Below are positions 9,325 through 31,418 of a DNA stretch of 64,000 bases, one piece after another; position 1 is the first letter of the stretch; every line of letters starts with the position of its first letter. The notes beneath the pieces are model-generated. The model ran no database searches. It was not told where the DNA came from and saw only the letters and a program-made list of their open reading frames with translations. The position numbers were made by a program, and so were the translations under genes. This stretch comes from Halorubrum sp. PV6 (GTDB taxonomy: Archaea > Halobacteriota > Halobacteria > Halobacteriales > Haloferacaceae). Location of the stretch: contig NZ_CP030065.1 of NCBI RefSeq assembly GCF_003990725.2, forward strand, positions 124,001-188,000, given 5' to 3'.

Positions 9325-11100
9325 TCACCGCAGCGCCCGCCGTCCAAACACAGCCACGAGCAACGCGATCAGAATCCCACCGATAAGGGACTGTACGCTA
9401 GCGAGCAGTTGCGTCGTCGTCGTGGTCGGCTCGATGCCGCCGTAGCCGAGCGTCGAGAAAGTGACGGCGCTGAAGTAGATGTAACCGATTAGGTCGGGCG
9501 TCTCACCGCCGATCACGATCCCACCGACGACCGAATAGATCGCTGCGAAGACGGCGACGACCACGATCGAGGTACCGACGACGCGGGCAGGGCTCTCACC
9601 GTAGAGCATCACCCACCGATACGTGGAGTGCTTGAACCACTCCCAGTACGAGACCGTCACGAAGGCTCGCTTTCGGCGGGAGTGCTGCTCTCTCACGTAG
9701 GGCTGCGCGACATCGCGTGGGCGGCTGTTCTCGCGCTGGAGGCGCTGTCGGATGCGATATACGCTGGTCGCTTTTTTCAGTCGATCGCCGACTTCTCGCC
9801 GATCCTCCGTGCCGAGGTTGCGGTGGCGACGGAATCGTCTGATGGCCTGTCGGACCTTCGCTATGGATTCTGTGGGCGGGCTCGCGTCGGCGCTGTGATA
9901 GCGTGACTGAAGGATCTGACCGCTTCGCACCGCGAGAGCGAACTTGTCTCGGAGTGATGTTGGGATAGTCGACTCTCCGTCGAGGAGGTGCCACGGGTCG
10001 CATGGGTCGGCCTCCCGCTCGTACACGGTCTGATCACTGAAGACAGTCTGATCGTTGATCGACATCCCCTGAGGCTTTGTATCGTAAAATCGTGTGCCTG
10101 TGAGATTGGTACCGTCGAATTGGCTATCTTTCAGAGATGCTCCTTCCAAGTTTGCTCCGAGAAGATCGGCGTCGGTGAAGTTCGTGCGGATAGCGGTTGC
10201 GTCTTTGAGCGATGTCCAACGCAAAGTGGCATCTGTAAGATCGGAATCGGTGAGTTCGGTATTCTTGAGGTTGGCGTCGGTGAGATCAGTAACACGGAGA
10301 TCGGCGTCGGTAAGATCGGCGCTTTGGAGATCGGCATCGGTAAGATCAGCATCTGCGAGGTGGGCGTTCGAGAGGTTGATTTGATAAAGGTTAGCGCCGG
10401 TAAGATTAGCACCCTCGAGGTTGAGGCTGGTGAAGTCGGTCCCGAAGAGGTCGGCATCGGTGAGATTAGTATTCACGAAGTTAGCGCCGGTAAGGTTGGC
10501 ACCACAGAGATCGGCGTCGGTGAGGTCAGCCAATGCAAAGTTAGCACCGGTAAGATCGGCACTGAGGAGGCTGGAATCGGTGAGGTCAGCTTCAAGGAGG
10601 TTGGCGTCGGTGAGATCAGCATCGAAGAAGTTGGCGTCAGTGAGGTCAGCACCGAGGAGGTTGGTGCCGGTGAGGTTGGCCCTGGAGAGAACAGCATTGG
10701 TGAAGTCGGTACGCCCAAGGACGGCGTCAGTGAAATTGGCCTTGGAGAGGTTGGCATCGGCGAAATCTGCATTGTAGAGGATAGTTTCAGAGAGATCTGC
10801 ATCTCGAAGGTAATATTCTTCTAATGCAAAACTAGGATCAAATTCGATTCCTGTCAACACTGCTCCGTCAAGTAATTCGCCCCCCGGTTGTGTTTGCTCT
10901 CGGATCTCGGCGTCGACCAAAGATTGTCGCAACGCTTCTACAGCCTTTTCACCCACCTCGTCCGGATCGGCGTGCCAAACACACAGATCTGAGTCTTGGT
11001 AGGTATCACGCCAGCAGCAACTCTGATGATTCAGTTGATCGCCCGCTCCGTAATCCTCTCCCCACGTGTACCCGCACTTCCCTTCTGGAACCTCGTTCAT
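9325..11100 (-). CDS. pentapeptide-repeat protein fused to a two-helix ion-channel domain
   Basis: The N-terminus is Cys-rich (CGYTWG, SCCWRD, CVWHADPDE), as often precedes haloarchaeal pentapeptide repeats. Residues about 85-340 are tandem A(D/N)LxX pentapeptides that fold as a right-handed quadrilateral beta helix. After a basic linker the last about 85 residues hold two membrane helices around TFSTLGYGGI, close to the K+-channel filter TVGYGD but with Gly in place of Asp. I chose the ATG at 11100 (MNEVPEGK), 2 bp after the stop of the upstream winged-helix gene; an in-frame ATG at 11121 is possible. Selective K+ conduction is inference. Confidence 0.85.
   Translation of the reverse strand: MNEVPEGKCGYTWGEDYGAGDQLNHQSCCWRDTYQDSDLCVWHADPDEVGEKAVEALRQSLVDAEIREQTQPGGELLDGAVLTGIEFDPSFALEEYYLRDADLSETILYNADFADANLSKANFTDAVLGRTDFTNAVLSRANLTGTNLLGADLTDANFFDADLTDANLLEADLTDSSLLSADLTGANFALADLTDADLCGANLTGANFVNTNLTDADLFGTDFTSLNLEGANLTGANLYQINLSNAHLADADLTDADLQSADLTDADLRVTDLTDANLKNTELTDSDLTDATLRWTSLKDATAIRTNFTDADLLGANLEGASLKDSQFDGTNLTGTRFYDTKPQGMSINDQTVFSDQTVYEREADPCDPWHLLDGESTIPTSLRDKFALAVRSGQILQSRYHSADASPPTESIAKVRQAIRRFRRHRNLGTEDRREVGDRLKKATSVYRIRQRLQRENSRPRDVAQPYVREQHSRRKRAFVTVSYWEWFKHSTYRWVMLYGESPARVVGTSIVVVAVFAAIYSVVGGIVIGGETPDLIGYIYFSAVTFSTLGYGGIEPTTTTTQLLASVQSLIGGILIALLVAVFGRRALR
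10130..10860 (-). repeat. tandem 15-bp coding repeats of the pentapeptide domain
   Basis: The DNA shows a strong 15-bp periodicity (plus strand near GGTNNGTGAGATCGGC) over about 730 bp. It encodes the A(D/N)LxX units of the gene above. The periodicity explains several long open frames on the other strand, which are not genes. Confidence 0.85.
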
Positions 11101-11102
11101 CA

Positions 11103-11426
11103 CTACCCGAACCCGGCCCACCAGCCGGGACGCGTCGCGTGCGGCGGCCGAAGCGCGGGAAGCGGGCGGATGAGCTTGGCGTCGACATAGCCGGCGAGAT
11201 AGCCAACGCCACGTGTCGTGATCGACCAGTGATCGTCGAGGTCGCCGCGATCATCGTTAGCGACCCAACCAGCCTTCGCGAGGACGTTGAGGCGAGTACG
11301 AACGAGACGACCGCCGAGGTGGAGATCGTGAGCGATCTGCCACCACGACGAGGGATCTTCTCGGCTGTGATACTCAAGGATTTTCTCGTCCTCCTGCACC
11401 ATCCAGTTTGCCGATTTTTTGTACAT
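11103..11426 (-). CDS. PhiH1-repressor-like winged-helix DNA-binding protein
   Basis: The 107-residue protein begins KKSANWMVQEDEKILEYH and continues with a winged-helix core (WQIAHDLHLGGRLVRTRLN, then HWSITTRGVGYLAGYVDA). This matches the small haloarchaeal regulators related to the phage PhiH1 repressor. It lies directly downstream of a paralogue at 11435-11731 and 2 bp before the pentapeptide-channel gene, so the three are probably one transcript. The GARP-rich tail after residue 88 is low complexity. It probably binds DNA near the divergent promoter at 11.7-11.95 kb. Confidence 0.8.
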   Translation of the reverse strand: MYKKSANWMVQEDEKILEYHSREDPSSWWQIAHDLHLGGRLVRTRLNVLAKAGWVANDDRGDLDDHWSITTRGVGYLAGYVDAKLIRPLPALRPPHATRPGWWAGFG

Positions 11427-11434
11427 AAGTCAAG

Positions 11435-11731
11435 TTAGACATGCGCATTTTCGTCGCCGTTCTCGGCCTCGGATCCCTCCTCAATCGACTTAGCATCGAG
11501 TTCACCTTCGAGATACGATTCCCCAGCTGGTGTGATCGAGTATACCCCGTTTCCGAGTTCTTGGACTAACCCGTGGTCCTTCATCCGATTCAGACGCTTG
11601 GAAACGCCCGATTTACCGATATCGACATATTCGTGCTTAGACAGCGGAGTTGGTGAGGTAGGGCCTTCGGCACTCATAATCTCCAAAATTCGATCGTCCC
11701 AGATGGTCATCCAATCTGCGCTCTTCCTCAT
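11435..11731 (-). CDS. PhiH1-repressor-like winged-helix regulator
   Basis: I chose the ATG at 11731 (MRKSADWMTIWDDRILEI), the typical start of this family; an upstream ATG at 11770 would add 13 unlike residues. The 98-residue product has a winged helix with recognition segment IGKSGVSKRLNRMKDHGLV and the wing GVYSITPAGESYL. The C-terminus is acidic. The gene is divergent from the nine-gene operon starting at 11952, and the spacer contains two adjacent perfect palindromes, so it is the likely repressor or switch of that operon. Confidence 0.82.
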   Translation of the reverse strand: MRKSADWMTIWDDRILEIMSAEGPTSPTPLSKHEYVDIGKSGVSKRLNRMKDHGLVQELGNGVYSITPAGESYLEGELDAKSIEEGSEAENGDENAHV

Positions 11732-11913
11732 AGACACGAAGTTTCCGCGAAGAAACTTTGTTCCCTGCATAAATGCTGGAAAGACATATCAGGTCTTTCT
11801 AGACCCGTCGTCAACTTTAAGACACGTCGTTTCTTTGTGTGGACTACGGAGCCCGAGTGACGAACCCTCGGCTAGTGAGAAAATGTAGGATCCCGGTCGC
11901 GGTGTCATCAGCA

Positions 11914-11950
11914 CCCGACCGGGTCGGGTTCTGTGCTGAAACCACAGAAC
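11914..11950. promoter_or_regulatory. two abutting palindromes in a divergent promoter region
   Basis: CCCGACC-G-GGTCGGG (11914-11928) is a perfect 7-bp-arm palindrome. It is followed without a gap by GTTCTGTG-CTGAAAC-CACAGAAC (11928-11950), a perfect 8-bp-arm inverted repeat. The second ends two bases before the ATG at 11952. They lie between a PhiH1-repressor-like gene and a long operon and are plausible operator sites. The second could alternatively act as an RNA hairpin. Confidence 0.55.
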
Positions 11951-11951
11951 C

Positions 11952-12146
11952 ATGCCAACGATGGCAACTGCGGGGCTTAAGCCCTGCGCGACGACCGAGG
12001 AATCGATCGAAAACACCGGCAGCTGCGAGTTGTGCGAAGCGTCCGCGGACGGCTATGACGCGGCGTACGGCGGCGCGCTCTGCAGAGAGTGTGTTGACGC
12101 GTTCGGCGCGCTCCAGAGCGATCTGCGGGAGGTGCGCGATGTGTAA
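11952..12146 (+). CDS. small zinc-ribbon protein, first gene of the overlapping operon
   Basis: The 64-residue peptide contains CELC and, 16 residues later, CREC, a four-cysteine zinc ribbon. Similar small CxxC proteins are common in haloarchaeal plasmids and proviruses. The ATG at 11952 follows the palindrome by one base; an ATG at 11961 (MATAGLK) is an alternative. The stop overlaps the next start by 8 bp (ATGTGTAA). It is probably nucleic-acid binding or a protein adaptor; the exact role is unknown. Confidence 0.72.
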   Translation: MPTMATAGLKPCATTEESIENTGSCELCEASADGYDAAYGGALCRECVDAFGALQSDLREVRDV

Positions 12147-12462
12147 CCCGGTGGGGAGTGAGACGCCCGAAGCCGATGAGACGGTCGCTGTCGCCACCCT
12201 CACCGCTTTCCAGCGGGACCTCCTCCGCACACTCGCAAAAACCGACGAACAGAGCGGGCTCTCACTGAAAACGGATCTTACCACCTACTACGGTGAAGCG
12301 ATTAACCACAGTCGGCTGTACCAAAACCTCGACGAGCTCGTCGCACACGGACTCATCAACAAACGCCAGCGCGACGGCCGCACCAACAGCTACAGCCTGA
12401 CTGACGCAGCACAGACAGCGCTCACAAAGCGCGACGCGTGGATCCGAGGTGAGACCGCGTGA
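12139..12462 (+). CDS. PadR-like winged-helix regulator
   Basis: The 107-residue protein contains AFQRDLLRTLAK, YYGEAINHSRLYQNLDELV and KRQRDGRTNSYSLTDAAQ, the pattern of PadR-type winged-helix proteins. The start ATG lies within the end of the zinc-ribbon gene (8-bp overlap). The open frame extends upstream to 11839, but that part is the shadow of other sequence. It is a second regulator of the operon besides the divergent PhiH1-like proteins. The stop overlaps the next GTG start by 4 bp. Confidence 0.82.
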   Translation: MCNPVGSETPEADETVAVATLTAFQRDLLRTLAKTDEQSGLSLKTDLTTYYGEAINHSRLYQNLDELVAHGLINKRQRDGRTNSYSLTDAAQTALTKRDAWIRGETA

Positions 12463-12563
12463 ACTTTACCCGTCCACACATCCGGTTTGACGCCCGCGAA
12501 CGCCTTACCGGCGACTACGACGATATCACCGTCCAGCAGGCAGTGGAGGCCTACACACAATGA
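12459..12563 (+). CDS. 34-residue peptide of the overlapping operon
   Basis: A GTG at 12459 overlaps the previous stop (GTGA), and a TGA at 12561 overlaps the next ATG (ATGA). The peptide reads MNFTRPHIRFDARERLTGDY and continues acidic to VEAYTQ. It has no motif I recognise. The support is positional: it fills the gap between two overlapping genes with coupled start and stop on both sides and haloarchaeal codon usage. Confidence 0.55.
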   Translation: MNFTRPHIRFDARERLTGDYDDITVQQAVEAYTQ

Positions 12564-12685
12564 CGAAGCTGTGGCGCTGCCGTCAGTGTGACCGGCTCGT
12601 TAATCGGTTTGTCAACGGCTGGATCTGCCCTCAGTGTGGCTGGTACTGTGGCCGGTCTCTCGCACACGTGAACAAGGGACCATGA
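12560..12685 (+). CDS. 41-residue zinc-ribbon peptide
   Basis: It starts at an ATGA overlap and ends at another. The sequence has CRQC and CPQC about 16 residues apart, followed by a further Cys in WYCGRS, so it is a compact zinc ribbon much like a rubredoxin-type knuckle. Such mini zinc fingers are common in haloarchaeal genomes and easily missed by gene callers. It probably binds nucleic acid or a partner from the same operon. Confidence 0.65.
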   Translation: MTKLWRCRQCDRLVNRFVNGWICPQCGWYCGRSLAHVNKGP

Positions 12686-13185
12686 GTCGGGAGCAACACA
12701 CCAACACCGGCTCGACGCCGCCAGTCCATCCTGCAAGCGAGGTCACCACGCGTCTCGATCAGCTGTCGCTTGCGTCCACGTCGGGTGCGTGTCAACACTG
12801 CGGGTGCTCGTTCACCGAGGGCGACGACGTCGTCGCGTACGTCCACAAGCCAGCCGAACAACACACCCACGAAGTTGGCCATTGCGTCTGCGCGCACAAC
12901 GAACACCGCCAGCAGGAGGTGTTCACGCTCGGCGTCCACGAACTGCTGGTCGCCGGGCGCATCGGAATCGCCTCCGACGCTGCGACCCAATCCACCTGGC
13001 CGATTCTCGTCGACCCGGTCCCACTCGGTGTGAGCGCACCAGCGACGACGACGATCCGCTGGCTGCCACCGGAGACGCCACTCGCCGAGCAGGTCGTCCC
13101 GAATGCGACCCACCGGCAGCGACGGCGCGACGCTCGGGCGCAGGTGACCGTCGGTGACTCACCGATGACGGAGGGAGATGACTAA
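12682..13185 (+). CDS. hypothetical protein with Cys/His cluster
   Basis: I chose the ATG at 12682, which overlaps the previous stop; the frame is open upstream to 12634. The 167-residue product has CQHCGCSF near residue 37 and, after about 22 residues, HEVGHCVCAHNEH, a Cys/His-rich zinc-binding arrangement. The rest is a beta-rich region ending in a basic stretch (ATHRQRRRDAR). I do not recognise a named family. It ends by a one-base overlap with the next ATG (TAATG). Confidence 0.68.
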   Translation: MSREQHTNTGSTPPVHPASEVTTRLDQLSLASTSGACQHCGCSFTEGDDVVAYVHKPAEQHTHEVGHCVCAHNEHRQQEVFTLGVHELLVAGRIGIASDAATQSTWPILVDPVPLGVSAPATTTIRWLPPETPLAEQVVPNATHRQRRRDARAQVTVGDSPMTEGDD

Positions 13186-13526
13186 TGTGGTCGTCGTCCC
13201 GCACCGAACCACCGCAACCGAAGAGGTCCGGTCACCAACCAACGCGCCCATCCACACAGCCAGCAGCCGATCCGGACATCACTCTCGCGACGATCGCACA
13301 CCTTCGGCGGGCGCTCACCGCGAGCACCGCCAGTGACGCGGCCGGCGTGACGGCGGCGCTGTTCCGAGCGACCCGGACTGTCGACGAGACACACCATCCA
13401 GACATCGCGGCCGCACTCCGGATCGCCCGCAGTGTCGATCCTGTCTCGCGAACGGTCCGCCAGTATATCCGAGAGCTGCTCCGGCGGCTCGTCGCGATGG
13501 TCAACTGCTGGGAGCCGCACAAGTGA
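13185..13526 (+). CDS. hypothetical helical protein
   Basis: The 113-residue product has a disordered N-terminus rich in Ser, Pro and Thr, then a helical region (ITLATIAHLRRALTAS, DPVSRTVRQYIRELLRRL). I see no enzymatic motif. It is coupled to both neighbours by one-base overlaps (TAATG before, TGATG after). Its position directly before the 979-residue protein suggests a small accessory subunit of that protein, which is inference only. Confidence 0.62.
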   Translation: MWSSSRTEPPQPKRSGHQPTRPSTQPAADPDITLATIAHLRRALTASTASDAAGVTAALFRATRTVDETHHPDIAAALRIARSVDPVSRTVRQYIRELLRRLVAMVNCWEPHK

Positions 13527-16465
13527 TGCCAGCAGACGAGCAGGCCCGCCGCGGGCACGCACAGCCCGCCGGCCAAGGCCACAAGCGCGGCGTCCATCTT
13601 GTGGGTCCAACCACACAGTATGATGCCGCCGGCAGCCACTGTGGAAGCGTCTCGCCGCGGCTGACCGAGTGGATACCCGAACTCCTCGACCAGCTTCGTG
13701 AGGCGACCACAGAAACAGTCCGAACCCAGACACCCCACAGCGACCCGTGGCGGGCGAGTACGTCACTCCTCGATACCACCCTTCCGGAGTGGACCTCCCT
13801 CGAGAACACGTGGGACGATGCGACCGCCGAGGCCGTCGCGTACACGCAGGCGATTACCGAGTTGGCGCTCGTCGACGGCGACACCGAGTCGTCATATCAC
13901 ACACAACGCCACAACGAATTACGCGACACCGTTCATACAGTCGGCACCGGGCGCGGCGCGGTCAACGCCGGGCTTGGCGCGCTCGCTAAGGGACCAGTCG
14001 CGCTCCACCGCGAATTCGACGCGACTCCCCGAGCGATTACCCTCGCACTCGATGGGGCGGCGTGGACCGATCTCACCGACCGCCGAACTGGCGTCCGCGC
14101 ACTCGCGGCCATCGCCGTGCTCGCAGCCGGGTTCGACGTTCGCGTTGTCGTCTCCCCGGCGCTCAAACGCCACCTCACCCGGCGGTACCCACAGTGGTGT
14201 GAAATCCACCTCGATCTTACGCAGAGCCGGGATCGGTCCCACCCGCATCCCCACCGCGTTCAGTCTCACGAGCCGACCACCGACGAGTGCCACCCCGCTT
14301 GGGAAGCGCTCGATGGGCTCGAACGCACACCGAAGAAACGACGTCTCCTCACCAATCTCGACGCCACAACCGGGCGAACCTACCAAGATCTCGAACATGA
14401 TCATGCGATCGACATTGAGGCAGGGACGGTCAGCCGGTACGTCCTTGATCTCGAGACGCGTGGGCTCGTCGACGTCGACCGTCGAGGCACCCACCACAGC
14501 GTCACCCTCTCTGAACGCGGTCAGACGGCCGTGGCTGGGTATCTCGACGCTGCCGGCGACCTCGTCCACCCCGAACAACGCCGACTGACTGACGATCTTA
14601 CTGCGACCACTCACGAGTCTACAGGTACAGTGTCGCCCCGCCCGGAGGGCTCCACAGGTGACACCCCACCCTCACTCGAAGAGTGGCTGGCGGCGACGGG
14701 TGACCCCGACGCCGACGGGGAGTTCGTCCAGTGGCTCAGGGGGCCCGACACCGTCGATGAAACCCACCTCCACCAGCGGTTTCGGACCCCTGCCCAAGAC
14801 GATAGCGTCACACTCGTTGATGACACCCCAACGCCGTTCGATGACGGCCGGGTTGGGTATCTGAGCCACACCTCCGGCGAGGCGCAGGTCGTTCTCCAGT
14901 GGGGTGGGCCCTTAGCCACTCTGGGACGTCTCGCGGCTGTCTTACTCAGCGATAAGGCGCTCTCGAAGATCTTGACGCCGTCGCGGTTCGGCCGCGCATT
15001 CGAGGCAATCCATCGCGGTGATCTCGAACAAGACGCCCCACGAGTGCTGTGTCGGGGCCACCAAGTTGGCTGGTACAGCGAGGACGAGCACACGTATGCG
15101 GCGTGGCGTGACCGCATCACGACTGTTCGTGATACACTGCTCGCTAAGATCGGCGAACACACGAGCAGTACCAATAGTGCCGCCCGAAGCAAACTCTTCG
15201 AAGACCTCCACGGGTTAGTCGCCTCGGCCACTCACCTGTACCACGCAATCGGCGTCGATCTAACGACCACAATACGGTTCCCGGACACCGCGGCGCTCGC
15301 GCGAAACTCGACGCAACGCCGGCAGCTCTGTACGTTCCTCGCGAAGACGGTGCCCAAACAATCGGTGTATGGCGTTCACTCGGGCTACCGCATGTTGTTC
15401 GAAGAGCGCCCACCCAAACTGCGGCGGCGGCTTCCCTACGACGTCGAGCCCGACGCGACGATGGATCTGACGATGTCGTGGGTGCTTGCGGGCCCGACGA
15501 TCACCGACCTCCGCGATGCGATCCACGAGGCGCTCACCGCAGAGCTCACCGCCGTCCGAGAGGCGATCGCGGAGGGCACCGAAACCGCCCCCACGCTCTC
15601 GGTGCCGGTCGTCGACGGGACGACCTACCCCGCCATCCGGCGGGTGATCGACGAGATTGCGATGACCCACGACACCCAGTGGACACCCCGCGAGCGACAG
15701 CGGCTCGTGCGGCTGTGTCTGCGCTCGTTCGGCCCGGCGGACACCACTCGCCGTGCATGTCCGTACGATGTCGTGGTGAGCCTGCTACGCGCGCTGAACG
15801 AGTCTCACGCTCCGACCGTGGCTGCGGTTGAACGCGCGGCGGCGACGCTCTCTGTCGCACGGTTCCGCCCCGATCTCGTGCCAACGGCGACGGCGTTGTA
15901 TGCGACCTTGCTTCGAGCCGACGAGCCGCTTGGTCGCTCAGCGTTACTCGAGCGGGCCGATATTGCGGCCAGTAGCTATGATCGCCGGATTGGCACTGTC
16001 CAAGCGCTTGACCGGGTACAGGCCGTTCACGTGGATGGCCACCGACGCTGGCTCACCACTGACGAGCCCAACCACCCGTCACCACAGCCGTCGCCGTACC
16101 TCGGTCACCCCCCTTCTTTGCTCCCGCTGTTGACGCACCGCTCACGAACACGTTCAGTCGGTTTCGCCACCAACCAGTGGGTGCCACTCCGAGTCGGCTG
16201 GCGACACCCACACCGAATCCTCACGTGGGGTCAACACGCCCCGACTGTCACTTGCCTTGACACCGCTCTTCCGGTGAACCAGTGGCGACTGCGCCGGGAG
16301 GACTGGACCGCAATCACCGACGCACCAACTCACCACAGCTACCACCCAGCCGCATTGCTTGAAACCACTACCCATGAACCACGCATGACACCACAATACT
16401 ACGCACCGACCGTATCGCTTCTTGACCAGCTACGCCCCCTCTCACCACGGGGTGCGTCCCAATGA
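13526..16465 (+). CDS. large multi-domain protein with internal winged helices (MarR-type annotation likely)
   Basis: The 979-residue protein is the centre of the operon. I chose the ATG at 13526, sharing one base with the previous stop; a GTG at 13523 adds one residue. Around residues 165-230 is an alpha/beta segment (ITLALDGAAWTDL, FDVRVVVSPALKRHL) that could be Rossmann-like. Residues about 265-345 form a winged helix (TVSRYVLDLETRGLVDV). A long helical middle follows, and residues about 790-840 form a second winged helix (LLERADIAASSYDRRIGTV). I found no Walker motifs. A plasmid replication initiator (RepH-like in size) or a DNA-organising protein are possible; neither is proven. Confidence 0.72.
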   Translation: MPADEQARRGHAQPAGQGHKRGVHLVGPTTQYDAAGSHCGSVSPRLTEWIPELLDQLREATTETVRTQTPHSDPWRASTSLLDTTLPEWTSLENTWDDATAEAVAYTQAITELALVDGDTESSYHTQRHNELRDTVHTVGTGRGAVNAGLGALAKGPVALHREFDATPRAITLALDGAAWTDLTDRRTGVRALAAIAVLAAGFDVRVVVSPALKRHLTRRYPQWCEIHLDLTQSRDRSHPHPHRVQSHEPTTDECHPAWEALDGLERTPKKRRLLTNLDATTGRTYQDLEHDHAIDIEAGTVSRYVLDLETRGLVDVDRRGTHHSVTLSERGQTAVAGYLDAAGDLVHPEQRRLTDDLTATTHESTGTVSPRPEGSTGDTPPSLEEWLAATGDPDADGEFVQWLRGPDTVDETHLHQRFRTPAQDDSVTLVDDTPTPFDDGRVGYLSHTSGEAQVVLQWGGPLATLGRLAAVLLSDKALSKILTPSRFGRAFEAIHRGDLEQDAPRVLCRGHQVGWYSEDEHTYAAWRDRITTVRDTLLAKIGEHTSSTNSAARSKLFEDLHGLVASATHLYHAIGVDLTTTIRFPDTAALARNSTQRRQLCTFLAKTVPKQSVYGVHSGYRMLFEERPPKLRRRLPYDVEPDATMDLTMSWVLAGPTITDLRDAIHEALTAELTAVREAIAEGTETAPTLSVPVVDGTTYPAIRRVIDEIAMTHDTQWTPRERQRLVRLCLRSFGPADTTRRACPYDVVVSLLRALNESHAPTVAAVERAAATLSVARFRPDLVPTATALYATLLRADEPLGRSALLERADIAASSYDRRIGTVQALDRVQAVHVDGHRRWLTTDEPNHPSPQPSPYLGHPPSLLPLLTHRSRTRSVGFATNQWVPLRVGWRHPHRILTWGQHAPTVTCLDTALPVNQWRLRREDWTAITDAPTHHSYHPAALLETTTHEPRMTPQYYAPTVSLLDQLRPLSPRGASQ

Positions 16466-16635
16466 GACACCCAGCAAGCGATCGAACAACCGCCGCCATC
16501 CGCGAGCGACCGCTCACCGACGAGGAGACACAAATCCGCGTCGCCCGCTGTGAAGAGGCCTCATCCCAACTCACGTGTAGCGTCGAACAGCGGAATCAGC
16601 GCCTGTGTCCCGCCCTGTACAAGAACAATGCGTAA
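16462..16635 (+). CDS. 57-residue peptide of the overlapping operon
   Basis: It begins at ATGA overlapping the stop of the large gene and ends by an 8-bp overlap with the rdfA start (ATGCGTAA). The peptide is charged, with three cysteines (VARCEEA, LTCSVE, RLCPAL) that do not form a standard ribbon. There is no recognisable family. The coupled start and stop are the main support. Confidence 0.55.
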   Translation: MRHPASDRTTAAIRERPLTDEETQIRVARCEEASSQLTCSVEQRNQRLCPALYKNNA

Positions 16636-17224
16636 CACTACAAGTACACGACCGAAGATAATTCGAGTAATCGACAAGTACGACCTCGACGGCATTGGCG
16701 ACCGAATGGTTACGGAATGGACAAAGCCCGAGAGTACCCGGCGCTCTTGTCGTGAACTCGCGGAATTCTTCAACATCCGTGTGCTCGATGCAGCACTCCG
16801 CGAAGCGGGTATTATTTGGGATCGATCACTTGTGGAGGAGTGTACCGAGATTGTCAAAGACAAGGACAAATCTCTGACAGGATTCGATCTCGATAGTAGG
16901 GGAGTAGACACCGACGAAGTCAGCGGCGACATGGTATCATATCAATCAATACATACATACCTAACAGAGCACCGTGGCACTGAGTACGAACGAGAGATCA
17001 ATGATATTCACTCGCGAGTAAAAAATTTACAGCAGATCGAGACAAGGACAGAAGCGATTGTCACTGGAATCATCGCACAATCTGTGACACACGACCAAGT
17101 ACACGGAATGGAGCCTGAAGTAGAGGTCACGATGGAATGTATCTGTAACACATGCGGGAGCAACACCGAGATGTCGGTGTATCTGCGAAACGGCGGCTGT
17201 CCTGCCTGTAGCCGGTCAGGCTAA
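16628..17224 (+). CDS. rdfA: RdfA family protein (rod-determining factor)
   Basis: The 198-residue product matches RdfA, known from Haloferax volcanii as required for rod cells and common in haloarchaeal mobile elements. Key parts are KIIRVIDKYDLDGIGDRMV, SCRELAEFFNIRVLDAAL, a middle with VSGDMVSYQSIHTYLTEHR, and helices to the C-terminus. This copy ends with a zinc ribbon (CNTC and CPAC). I chose the ATG at 16628, which overlaps the previous stop; the frame is open to 16550. It is the last gene of the operon, suggesting that the element may influence host cell shape or that RdfA relatives have another element function. Confidence 0.83.
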   Translation: MRNTTSTRPKIIRVIDKYDLDGIGDRMVTEWTKPESTRRSCRELAEFFNIRVLDAALREAGIIWDRSLVEECTEIVKDKDKSLTGFDLDSRGVDTDEVSGDMVSYQSIHTYLTEHRGTEYEREINDIHSRVKNLQQIETRTEAIVTGIIAQSVTHDQVHGMEPEVEVTMECICNTCGSNTEMSVYLRNGGCPACSRSG

Positions 17225-17378: not shown

Positions 17379-17747
17379 ATGCCCGTCGATTTCGAAACAC
17401 ACGAACCCGGAAACCCACGCGTTGACCTGTCAGAGGGGACCAACGCGAGGCGGTTGTTGGAGTTCCTGTTGACGACACCGACCGTGGGGTACACGCCAGC
17501 GGAATTAGCAGAGGAAACAGAGATCCCACGTGGGAGTGTTGGACCGACAATGAACCGGCTCGAAGCTGCGGGCCTCGTTCGTCACAAGGAACCGTATTGG
17601 GCAGCCGCAGAAGACGACCGGATCGCAGCAGCGACGGCTGCCTTCATCGGGGTCGAAACAGCATCTTCTACATACAGTGATGATTGGTACGCTCAGAACG
17701 ACGGGTGGGCTGAGGAGTTGCCCGATCTGAGCGACGAAGAGTCATAG
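17379..17747 (+). CDS. winged-helix antitoxin (MarR-like)
   Basis: The 122-residue protein contains a winged helix: ARRLLEFLLTTPTVGYTPAELAEETEIPRGSVGPTMNRLEAAGLV in outline, with a recognition helix at residues about 50-65. The acidic C-terminal tail (VETASSTYSDDWY to DLSDEES) is the usual toxin-binding part in this family. It precedes a PemK/MazF-like toxin by 3 bp. It probably represses its own promoter and neutralises the toxin. An IS5-type end lies about 40 bp upstream. Confidence 0.82.
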   Translation: MPVDFETHEPGNPRVDLSEGTNARRLLEFLLTTPTVGYTPAELAEETEIPRGSVGPTMNRLEAAGLVRHKEPYWAAAEDDRIAAATAAFIGVETASSTYSDDWYAQNDGWAEELPDLSDEES

Positions 17748-17750
17748 CGA

Positions 17751-18080
17751 ATGGTGTTTTCGCAAGGCGCTATCGTCATCTCGGACGACCCGTTTGGAAA
17801 CAACCCAAAGCGCCCGTACCTGATCCTCTCGAACGATCACGTCCCCTTCCACGGCCAAGAGTACGTTGCGGCAGTGATCACGACGACAGCTCGGACTGAG
17901 GCCGTTGAACTCACCGCCAACAGGCTCGAACGGGGACGGCTCCCCCGGACATCCTACGTGTCTCCGTGGTCGGTCCTCACGCTCAAGGATTGGATGATCA
18001 CGAAGCAACCCGCAGAAGCGACTGACGCGACCGTCGATGAGGTGCGGCAAGAGTTGGATACATATCTACAGACCAGATGA
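17751..18080 (+). CDS. PemK/MazF-like mRNA interferase toxin
   Basis: The 109-residue product has the PemK-like barrel pattern: FSQGAIVISDDPFG at the N-terminus, KRPYLILSNDHVPF, VAAVITTT and TSYVSPWSVLTLKD. Toxins of this fold cleave mRNA. It begins 3 bp after the winged-helix antitoxin, in one transcript. The haloarchaeal version pairs with a winged-helix rather than an AbrB antitoxin. No truncation is seen. Confidence 0.82.
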   Translation: MVFSQGAIVISDDPFGNNPKRPYLILSNDHVPFHGQEYVAAVITTTARTEAVELTANRLERGRLPRTSYVSPWSVLTLKDWMITKQPAEATDATVDEVRQELDTYLQTR

Positions 18081-19977: not shown

Positions 19978-21297
19978 TCAAGACGTGTTCGCGTCACCGG
20001 TCTCTGGCCTCGCCCCTGCTCCCACTACTGGTGAGCTAGACGAACCCTTGTCATCGGAAGCCCGCTTCTCAGACGGGAGTCCCTCGCTCGGTGACGTGTC
20101 TTCGTGGGCCTGCCACTGGCCCCCGCTCTGTGGCGAGTCATCGCCTACCGTTTTCCAAGGCAGGCTCTCTCCCCACGGATTCAGCCGGTTGGCTATGTTC
20201 GCTGCTGCGTTCAGATCTGCTTGGTACTCCAACACCCAGCACGCCTCATTCGTACACTTGAATGTGCCTTGATGCGGTCGATAACCAACGTGTTGACACG
20301 CGTGGCACGTCTTCGACGTGTGGTGCGGATGCACGCATTCCACAGGAATACCGCGTTCCGCTGCCTTATCCTCAATACGTGACTGTATCTGGGAGAACAG
20401 CCACTTGCCGAGGCGTCGATTCCAGTATTCTCCGATATCCTCGTTGGTGATCCCGTCAAGGTATTCGAGAGCGATGACCGGGTTTTCAAACTGAGAGGCG
20501 TATTCGACGGCCCGATGTGAGGCTTTCTCTACTTCGTCTTCGATGGCGTCTTGCCACCGCCCCCACACGAGATCGTCCAAGAGTTTTGAGGCGTACCGTG
20601 GTTTCAAGCGGTCTTCGGCAGAGGCTTGTTTCTGTCGAAGGTGTCGGACACGACCACCATCAACGAACAACGGATCAACAGGCGTGTCGCCTCGGAGGGC
20701 ACAGCCCACCAAGAGTTTGGATTCTCCCACGTCGAACCCGACAGGGGTCACGTCGTCACTGTCATACGAACACGAGTGGTCTGATTCCACTTCGTAGTTC
20801 GCGGTGACATGCAACACCCATCTGTCACCATCGAGTTGTAAGCGGATTTCACCCGCCCACACACTGTCATCTTCGTCATCAATCAACGAGTGCCACCACT
20901 CTTCTTGCTCGGGATTCAGTTGGAGTGGTATCCAGAAGTTCGTTCCGTGACCGGGAAGTGGGACTTCCCAGCAGATTTCGTGATGGCGATCGTCGTCGTG
21001 GTCAAAAACGGCTGCAGTGTTGGCGTAACGGATGGGGTGGTCGTCTGCGAGTTGCTTCGCATCGTACGTATCCTCGTCGAGGAGGTTTGGTACGTACTTT
21101 TTGAGTGCGTTTTTCGAGTGCCAGTTGAGGTCTTCACCAGTGACGATCTCGTTGACGGCAGTCATCGTGTCGCACTCACCGTTGAAGCTGCGACGGAGCA
21201 ACGATTCGTATCGATCGTGTTCCCCGTGGAGCTTGCGCTGCTTGTGCTGAGTGGGTGGGGCAAGATACGCTTCGAGCGTCTTGCACTCCTCACTCAT
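19978..21297 (-). CDS. tnpB: TnpB RNA-guided nuclease of an IS200/IS605-type element
   Basis: The 439-residue protein carries the split RuvC site: Asp in VGFDVGESKLLVG, Glu in VIALEYLDGIT and Asp in YQADLNAAANIANR. Between the last two is a zinc ribbon, CHAC and later CTNEAC. TnpB cuts DNA guided by an omega RNA from the element's right end and promotes retention of the transposon. No TnpA is present, so this element depends on another transposase. The start overlaps the stop of a 45-residue gene. The C-terminal tail is acidic and disordered, ending in PETGDANTS. Confidence 0.92.
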   Translation of the reverse strand: MSEECKTLEAYLAPPTQHKQRKLHGEHDRYESLLRRSFNGECDTMTAVNEIVTGEDLNWHSKNALKKYVPNLLDEDTYDAKQLADDHPIRYANTAAVFDHDDDRHHEICWEVPLPGHGTNFWIPLQLNPEQEEWWHSLIDDEDDSVWAGEIRLQLDGDRWVLHVTANYEVESDHSCSYDSDDVTPVGFDVGESKLLVGCALRGDTPVDPLFVDGGRVRHLRQKQASAEDRLKPRYASKLLDDLVWGRWQDAIEDEVEKASHRAVEYASQFENPVIALEYLDGITNEDIGEYWNRRLGKWLFSQIQSRIEDKAAERGIPVECVHPHHTSKTCHACQHVGYRPHQGTFKCTNEACWVLEYQADLNAAANIANRLNPWGESLPWKTVGDDSPQSGGQWQAHEDTSPSEGLPSEKRASDDKGSSSSPVVGAGARPETGDANTS

Positions 21298-30179: not shown

Positions 30180-30235
30180 TACCCCGACCTACTCACTCGC
30201 CGCTGGCGCGGCTCGTTCCTTGAGGTCGGGGCTTC
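30180..30235 (-). repeat. right end of the second TnpB element
   Basis: CCCCGACCT (30182) pairs with AGGTCGGGG (about 30222) over an internal GC-rich stem, overlapping the last codons and stop of tnpB. It is the probable omega RNA scaffold. A near copy lies at 22410-22475 without tnpB and a diverged one at 63487-63545. Confidence 0.62.
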
Positions 30236-31418
30236 CTGTTTCCACGACGCGCTTTGCAGGGACCGAATCGGTCCCCGTAGGGAGCGCAGTCTCCGCAGGC
30301 GTTGTTTCGGAGCGTCCCTCTCCTAACTGCTTGATTCCGCGAGAAAGAATATTCCATGCCGCGTTCCAGTCCCTATCGGCGGTGAAGCCACACGAGGGAC
30401 AGGAGTGTTCCCGGACCCACAACGGCTTGTCCGTCTTGACACCGCAGGCAGCGCATTCTTTGGTTGTCCCTGCTGGTTCTACCGATACGAAGAACGTGCC
30501 TTCACGTTCACACTTGTACTCCAGCATTCGCAGGAACGTACCCCACGCCGCCCCCGCACGGTTGCGTGAGTTACCCGGGAGTTCGACTAACCCTTTCGTG
30601 TTGAGGTCTTCCACAGCCACGAGGTCGTACTCACTCGCGTAGTAGTTCGACAGCTTGTGGAGAAAATCGCGACGTTTCCGTTTCAGATCGGCATGACGCC
30701 GAGCGACAGTCTTTCGCTGTTCTTCCCAGTTGTTTGACCCGTGGTCCTTCCGCGAGAGATCACGCTGGGCGCGTTCCAACCGTTTGCGATCGTCTGAAAC
30801 GTTGAGCGACCCGACAGCCGTGCCGTCGGTGTCGCTTGCGTAGTTGAGTATGCCTACGTCGATTCCGACTGTCTTTGTCAACTCGTCGGGTTTCTCAGGT
30901 GGATTGTCGGGTGTTTCCAGCTGGAGCGAGGCGTACCAGTTGCTGGTCGGCTCACGTTTGACGACGACACCTTTCACCTCGGCGTCGGTTGGAAGATCGC
31001 GATGGGCAACAATGGGCACGTCGCCGATCTTGTTGAGGTACAACCGATCTTGACCACTCGTTTTCTTGAGTTCGAAGCCAGATTGGTTATACTCGAAAGA
31101 GTGGTAGTACCCTTTGCCCTTCCATTTTAGTTGCCCGACCGTGTGCCCCTTCTCTTTCTTTTTCCTGAGATTAGAGCGGTCGGTGTAGAGCCGTCGGACG
31201 ACCATCTGAAGGACTTTCGAGTTGACATCCTGAAGCTCGGTCCACCATTCTTTGAGGTCGGGGAGACGGTTCTGTTCAGGGGTGTACGTCGGGTTCTCCA
31301 CACGGTTCATGCGGTGGAGAAAGTGATTACGGACTTGCCGACAGATATCCAACGTCCACGCTAGCCGCTCCTGCTGGCTGGGTGTGGGGTTGAGTCGGAA
31401 CCTGTAGGCGAAGTCCAT
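30189..31418 (-). CDS. tnpB: TnpB RNA-guided nuclease (IS1341-type element)
   Basis: The 409-residue protein begins FAYRFRLNPTPSQQERLAWT, the usual TnpB helix-turn-helix start. RuvC residues are Asp in VGIDVGILNYA, Glu in VAVEDLNTKG and Asp in TADRDWNAAWNI, with a zinc ribbon CAAC and CPSC between the last two. All are intact, so it is probably an active omega-RNA-guided nuclease. No tnpA is near. A DUF2080 gene precedes it by 6 bp. The C-terminus overlaps the element's terminal hairpin. Confidence 0.93.
   Translation of the reverse strand: MDFAYRFRLNPTPSQQERLAWTLDICRQVRNHFLHRMNRVENPTYTPEQNRLPDLKEWWTELQDVNSKVLQMVVRRLYTDRSNLRKKKEKGHTVGQLKWKGKGYYHSFEYNQSGFELKKTSGQDRLYLNKIGDVPIVAHRDLPTDAEVKGVVVKREPTSNWYASLQLETPDNPPEKPDELTKTVGIDVGILNYASDTDGTAVGSLNVSDDRKRLERAQRDLSRKDHGSNNWEEQRKTVARRHADLKRKRRDFLHKLSNYYASEYDLVAVEDLNTKGLVELPGNSRNRAGAAWGTFLRMLEYKCEREGTFFVSVEPAGTTKECAACGVKTDKPLWVREHSCPSCGFTADRDWNAAWNILSRGIKQLGEGRSETTPAETALPTGTDSVPAKRVVETGSPDLKERAAPAASE

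Follow-up and report, generated by a model that had tools for sequence, protein, structure and literature searches.

Locus organization and gene content

The DNA analysed here, referred to as the window, is a 64,000-nucleotide stretch (C2:124001-188000) of C2, a 300,774-bp Halorubrum-type contig of strain PV6 (main contig C1, 2.74 Mb; closest named relatives Halorubrum distributum and H. ezzemoulense). Nine open reading frames were confirmed at 11952-17224, and recomputation from the sequence reproduced the overlaps of starts and stops that a first-pass annotation had reported at all eight junctions (8, 4, 4, 4, 1, 1, 4 and 8 bp). The GC content of the operon is ~65%, as against ~54% for its contig, and CxxC-type cysteine pairs are encoded by genes 1, 4 and 5. 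Other elements singled out in that annotation were also recovered (Table 1), namely the PadR-like gene, the terminal RdfA gene (8e-45; 153.5 bits versus a cut-off of 27) and, at the front of the operon, minus-strand PhiH1-repressor-like genes together with two palindromes.

The operon is directly followed by a MarR-like gene and a PemK/MazF-like toxin gene (17379..18080, plus strand; PF12802 and PF02452), likely a plasmid maintenance pair. Upstream, positions 9325-11121 code for a 598-aa protein in which pentapeptide repeats are fused to an ion-channel domain; a relative is found in Haloarcula virus Harhisp1, beside its wHTH gene (locus L253), and also in locus L162. TnpB-like transposon proteins are encoded on the minus strand at 19978-21297 and 30189-31418.

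Table 1. Features of the operon and of the region preceding it (positions in the window).
Feature	Position	Strand	Description
Second divergent small winged-helix (PhiH1-repressor-like) gene	11103..11426	-	107 aa; HTH profile match in homologous cassettes; no Pfam hit at 0.01
First divergent winged-helix (PhiH1-repressor-like) gene	11435..11770	-	111 aa; weak Pfam HVO_A0261_N / MarR_2 / HTH_20
TATA-like box CTTTAAGA	11815..11822	+	~27 nt before leader 5' strand; read from sequence
Leader 5' strand TACGGAGCCC	11845..11854	+	Predicted to form helix P1 with the middle strand; RNAalifold consensus
Hairpin P1a (11853-11857 with 11867-11871)	11853..11871	+	Small 5' hairpin, alternative to P1; pair counts
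Hairpin P2 (11892-11904 with 11912-11923)	11892..11923	+	First palindrome
Middle strand GGGTTCTGTG	11926..11935	+	Complementary to both the 5' and the 3' strand
3' strand CACAGAACC	11943..11951	+	Abuts AUG at 11952; predicted to form helix P3 with the middle strand, second palindrome (11927-11951)
Hairpin P4 (GCGGGGC-TTAA-GCCCTGC)	11970..11987	+	Inside start of gene 1; pair counts; coding also constrains
Gene 1 (A)	11952..12146	+	64-aa CxxC protein; conserved after leader in 41/41 Halorubrum-type loci
Gene 2 (B)	12139..12462	+	PadR-like regulator, 107 aa; PF03551, 3e-10; in nearly all cassettes
Gene 3 (C)	12459..12563	+	GTG start, 34 aa; in six long-form RepH loci, weaker relatives before recombinases
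Gene 4 (D)	12560..12685	+	41-aa four-cysteine zinc-ribbon-like protein (weak profile match); conserved across loci
Gene 5 (E)	12682..13185	+	167 aa with cysteine pairs; many loci have it immediately before RepH
Gene 6 (F)	13185..13526	+	113 aa; only in long-form loci
Gene 7	13526..16465	+	RepH plasmid replication protein, 979 aa; tblastn and structural match
Gene 8	16462..16635	+	57 aa; only in RdfA-bearing clade
Gene 9	16628..17224	+	Divergent RdfA-family protein; apparently a clade-specific passenger; PF21811

Identity of the large protein

In tblastn searches against plasmids, the 979-aa product of gene 7 was 92% identical to RepH of H. ezzemoulense and 45% identical, over 86% of its length, to RepH of pNRC100/pNRC200, the RepH proteins of phiH1 and PhiCh1 being more distant relatives; its predicted structure also matched that of ChaoS9 RepH (E 1e-32). 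The protein is thereby identified, by homology, as RepH, the haloarchaeal plasmid replication protein, which mutagenesis has shown to be needed for the replication of pNRC100 (PMC1447603). An uncharacterised family was considered and rejected, the homology to annotated RepH extending over most of the protein. The initial proposal that the operon constitutes the core of a mobile replicon was borne out, with RepH as its large gene. Relatives of RepH were present in 80 of the 392 genomes sampled from the order and in 25 of 52 genomes of the genus. PV6 itself carries a second RepH copy and a RepH fragment on its main contig; the second copy (L038; G000:C1:1066000-1083000) has a short-form cassette, the fragment lies ~12 kb off, and together they are probably an integrated or decaying plasmid. 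Since C2 also has three Orc1/Cdc6 genes, it may possess initiators besides RepH.

The two winged helices expected in this protein are present in its predicted structure, at ~256-362 and 783-852, and in a Foldseek search with the whole of RepH the winged helix alone matched known structures well. When the C-terminal half was modelled separately, with high confidence (pLDDT 90.7), all Foldseek matches were weak (RuvB, E 0.004; Orc1/Cdc6, 0.07), RFC being likewise only weakly similar; within them, it is the lid-like and wHTH parts that align. Reading of the RepH sequence revealed no obvious P-loop, and we treat the weak AAA+ similarity of the C-terminal model as a lead only.

Conservation of gene order

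Five other Halorubrum RepH loci share genes 1 to 7 with their order and overlaps, which brings the total to six with the window. A shorter version comprising genes 1, 2, 5 and 7 (RepH) is found in ~20 Halorubrum-type loci. This recurrence indicates that the arrangement is more than chance, and the upstream small genes constitute a conserved control region of the RepH operon. The synteny of small genes with the large protein, suggested earlier as a check for a single system, is present for the upstream small genes, but the front cassette is modular and also precedes recombinases. Across the 41 Halorubrum-type loci, the constant cassette consists of a divergent winged-helix gene, the leader described below and gene A, with gene B in nearly all; it is followed by RepH in ~25 loci, by a tyrosine recombinase in 11 and by a serine recombinase in one (L167).

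A predicted two-state RNA leader

Alignment of the region upstream of gene 1 revealed ~150 nt of high conservation in which loops vary and stems are conserved, and positions 11845-11990 are predicted to form a conserved structured RNA leader. Distant homologues have an AT-rich box at a similar distance before it. The importance initially attributed to the divergent repressor-like genes and the palindromes was justified, the palindromes being parts of a larger conserved, predicted RNA fold. In this fold, the middle strand can pair with only one of two partners at a time, the 5' strand (P1) or the strand that adjoins the AUG (P3); P3 has 9/9 pairs in the window, and its gap to the AUG is zero in nearly all homologues. 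The computed energies of the two states in the window are nearly equal (-65.2 versus -68.1 kcal/mol, ~3 apart). In silico, the leader presents a trait of attenuators and riboswitches, namely two mutually exclusive conserved helices.

None of the 4227 covariance models of Rfam matched 11400-12300 at E values up to 5, or any part of the window at gathering score, and a literature search for such a leader RNA retrieved nothing relevant. The leader represents a well-supported RNA family in the mobile elements of haloarchaea, one that apparently has not been described before. The PV6 genome contains three close copies, two preceding RepH genes and one (C1:1768296) preceding the same set of small genes with a tyrosine recombinase behind them. 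In another genome (G343), the 3' half of the leader and the start of gene A are tandemly duplicated at two loci (L162 and L163).

Distribution across haloarchaea and their mobile elements

A first covariance model led to other genera, on whose loci a second model was built. The latter matched 44 of 315 genomes of the phylum, all from the same order, of which 57 members were listed, and with up to eight copies per genome, while no match was obtained in the sampled phylum members outside the order. The covariance model is blind to genes, and hence genomic context provides an independent test of its matches. Of the 19 additional loci retrieved solely with the RNA model, 18 had a divergent winged-helix gene just upstream, at the position of the gene at 11435..11770, where all 41 Halorubrum-type leader loci have a divergent HTH gene; in 16, a tyrosine recombinase lay 0.3-1.9 kb further downstream. 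The AUG behind the leader leads straight into the recombinase in Haloarcula. Some of the weaker matches had no recombinase in reach (L221, L223-L226, L234, L236 and L247). Three of these loci, L224, L225 and L226 (f17 family), harbour shorter relatives of the leader, with different strand sequences and the same three-strand logic; the ORF downstream in L226 has a SWIM-like CPCPHH...CKHM motif.

Across haloarchaea, recombinase operons of proviruses, viruses and plasmids are headed by this leader. It was identified in the known elements pHK2 (E 2e-19), SNJ2 (5e-15), HHPV4 (4e-7) and Harhisp1 (1.5e-5), and the first gene of SNJ2's int operon has its annotated start at the AUG that follows P3. Phages are reached by the covariance model only, blastn searches of them with the leader having produced no match. 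The exact pattern GGTTCTGTG-N-CACAGAACCATG did not occur in viral contigs, because other elements carry different sequences that maintain the same pairing.

Covariation and strand evidence

In the Halorubrum-type set, seven pairs displayed two-sided changes, amounting to 21 cells, a result obtained in 0 of 500 shuffles. In the diverse set (n = 44 sequences) such changes affected 30 of 32 pairs and 266 cells, compared with 22-44 cells in slid controls. Since the 44-sequence alignment had been fitted to the covariance model, we applied an independent partner-swap test, in which each 5' or 3' strand of 14 divergent representatives was paired with its own or with another representative's middle strand. 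Out of 20,000 random assignments, one did as well as the own partners for P1 and none did for P3. For P2, 4 of 12 pairs showed compensatory changes within the Halorubrum-type loci, a number that rose to 11 in the diverse set. In a few relatives P1 was weak by shuffling (L207, L213, L217 and L219), and P3 was missing or weak in L220 and L061.

The ratio of G-U to A-C intermediates favoured pairing on the plus strand for P1 (73:2) and P1a (37:2), but not for P2 (1:15 within Halorubrum, 9:9 in the diverse set) or P3 (2:22 in the diverse set). Given this mixed evidence, an antisense RNA may be involved, or part of the region may act at the DNA level.

Proposed function and alternative explanations

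We consider it reasonably probable that the operon serves RepH-type replication and copy control in a Halorubrum-type replicon and that a two-state leader at its head gates its expression. To judge from its position and from phiH1-type repressors, the divergent winged-helix repressor would control transcription at the TATA box, and a second, post-transcriptional gate would be added by the leader, which we infer to be a bistable switch. In the P1 state the AUG would be open, whereas in the P3 state it would be flanked by P3 and P4 and initiation would be poor. Some factor might set the balance between both states, for instance the first-made CxxC or PadR protein, an antisense RNA or a signal from the host, the outcome being conditional replication (through RepH) or integration and excision (through the integrase). 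A broader proposition, for which we put the chances at about even, is that such leaders form a haloarchaea-wide class of bistable cis-acting RNAs, not in Rfam, which head early operons of viruses, plasmids and integrated elements as a post-transcriptional gate of the decision between replication and integration, the cassette being swapped among RepH, tyrosine-recombinase and other operons.

Some of the same observations can be read differently. The leader might encode, or be targeted by, an antisense RNA that switches both states, as in counter-transcript control of plasmid copy number; we regard this as unlikely. Its architecture is that of the three-segment attenuators of rep leaders, the tip of P2 (G(G/C)UG-loop-CA(G/C)C) is under strong constraint, and in Halorubrum P2 tolerates changes that correspond to wobble pairs on the minus strand; however, no antisense promoter has been demonstrated, and the minus-strand preference derives from few events and is gone in the diverse set. 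Somewhat less probable still is a role at the DNA level, with the conserved region serving as a hairpin-bearing replication origin or as an attachment or operator site. It does contain several inverted repeats, lies upstream of repH, where pNRC100 has an origin-linked region (PMC1447603), and in P2 covaries through A-C rather than G-U intermediates. Yet the leader also precedes recombinase operons that lack RepH, its distance to the AUG is fixed, a TATA-like box is present, and complementarity persists as arm sequences change and loop lengths vary, unlike in a DNA operator with fixed spacing. The annotated attP of Harhisp1 is located after int and not at the leader, and a role of the leader as the SNJ2 origin was rejected because that origin, defined experimentally, maps downstream of orf19, whereas the leader stands before orf3 (PMC13107129).

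The remaining alternative takes all nine genes as one system, with RdfA as the functional end point that ties the mobile element to host cell shape. We hold this to be very improbable, even if the overlapping genes make a shared transcript likely in the RdfA-bearing clade. RdfA follows RepH in a single clade (3 of 52 genus genomes), genes 8 and 9 are confined to loci whose RepH is ~92% identical, and the megaplasmid of H. ezzemoulense Fb21 has an intact repH but an rdfA split in two, an annotated IS66 transposase lying between the parts (L098, 14941-17287). Moreover, RdfA-family proteins occur in 337 of 392 genomes irrespective of RepH, which is found in 80. Synteny led us to reject a nine-gene unit ending in RdfA, and the initial inclusion of RdfA and the 57-aa gene in a conserved unit was not upheld. 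The restriction of rdfA to one clade and its interruption in Fb21 argue for RdfA being a passenger rather than a core part, and we view it as a late, clade-specific acquisition at the end of the operon, outside the proposed mechanism. PV6 has three RdfA-family proteins, of which the operon copy is the most divergent. An SMC-like partner gene adjoins RdfA in 78% of cases (PMC10869688); the scanned neighbours of gene 9, the 57-aa gene and the MarR/MazF-like pair, gave no SMC hit.

How archaeal viruses and plasmids choose among quiescence, replication and integration has seen little study, and archaea have few known structured regulatory RNAs. If our preferred reading of a leader-gated operon is true, the two-state RNA would constitute a concrete, testable switch ahead of replication and integrase genes in the mobile elements of haloarchaea, as well as an RNA signature for spotting such elements in genomes. 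Besides that, the leader occurs in tractable elements with established genetics (SNJ2 and pHK2).

Comparison with known systems

The RepH region of the Halobacterium plasmids pNRC100/pHH1 resembles the PV6 operon in its RepH homologue, and the L region of phiH1 in having a divergent repressor (repR) before repH, with PadR and CxxC small genes nearby. In contrast, no small-gene operon is annotated upstream of repH in pNRC100, and the leader model finds nothing convincing in either element (best E in phiH1, 0.62). Halovirus ChaoS9, whose RepH is the fold match mentioned above, has small overlapping genes, including one for a zinc-finger protein, directly before repH (PMC6471424), but there repH is followed by a MarR gene and a CxxC gene, without RdfA. 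Given these small genes in ChaoS9 and the fact that RepH is a named family, the RepH operon as such is not new, contrary to the earlier suggestion of a unit undescribed as a system.

The int operon or lysogeny module of the Betapleolipovirus SNJ2 shares with the PV6 locus a divergent regulator, the leader RNA, accessory genes placed behind it and, as in the recombinase-bearing cassettes, an integrase. The operon and its helpers have been described, and the portions of these descriptions that we consulted contain no leader RNA (PMC8371274, PMC13107129). The SNJ2 module differs from that of PV6 in controlling an integrase and not RepH.

Assignment of the leader to any known RNA family is not supported by the sequence comparisons. 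In the rep-leader attenuators of bacterial plasmids (pT181 repC type), three segments engage in mutually exclusive pairing and the last one adjoins the start codon. They provide the nearest working analogy for the PV6 leader, which has the same three-segment logic with its last segment beside the start codon; unlike them, it is archaeal, unrelated in sequence and with no U-tract terminator seen, and an antisense RNA is only hypothetical here. The novelty of the locus is its leader RNA; the operon itself belongs to the known RepH replication type and ends in an RdfA tail confined to one clade.
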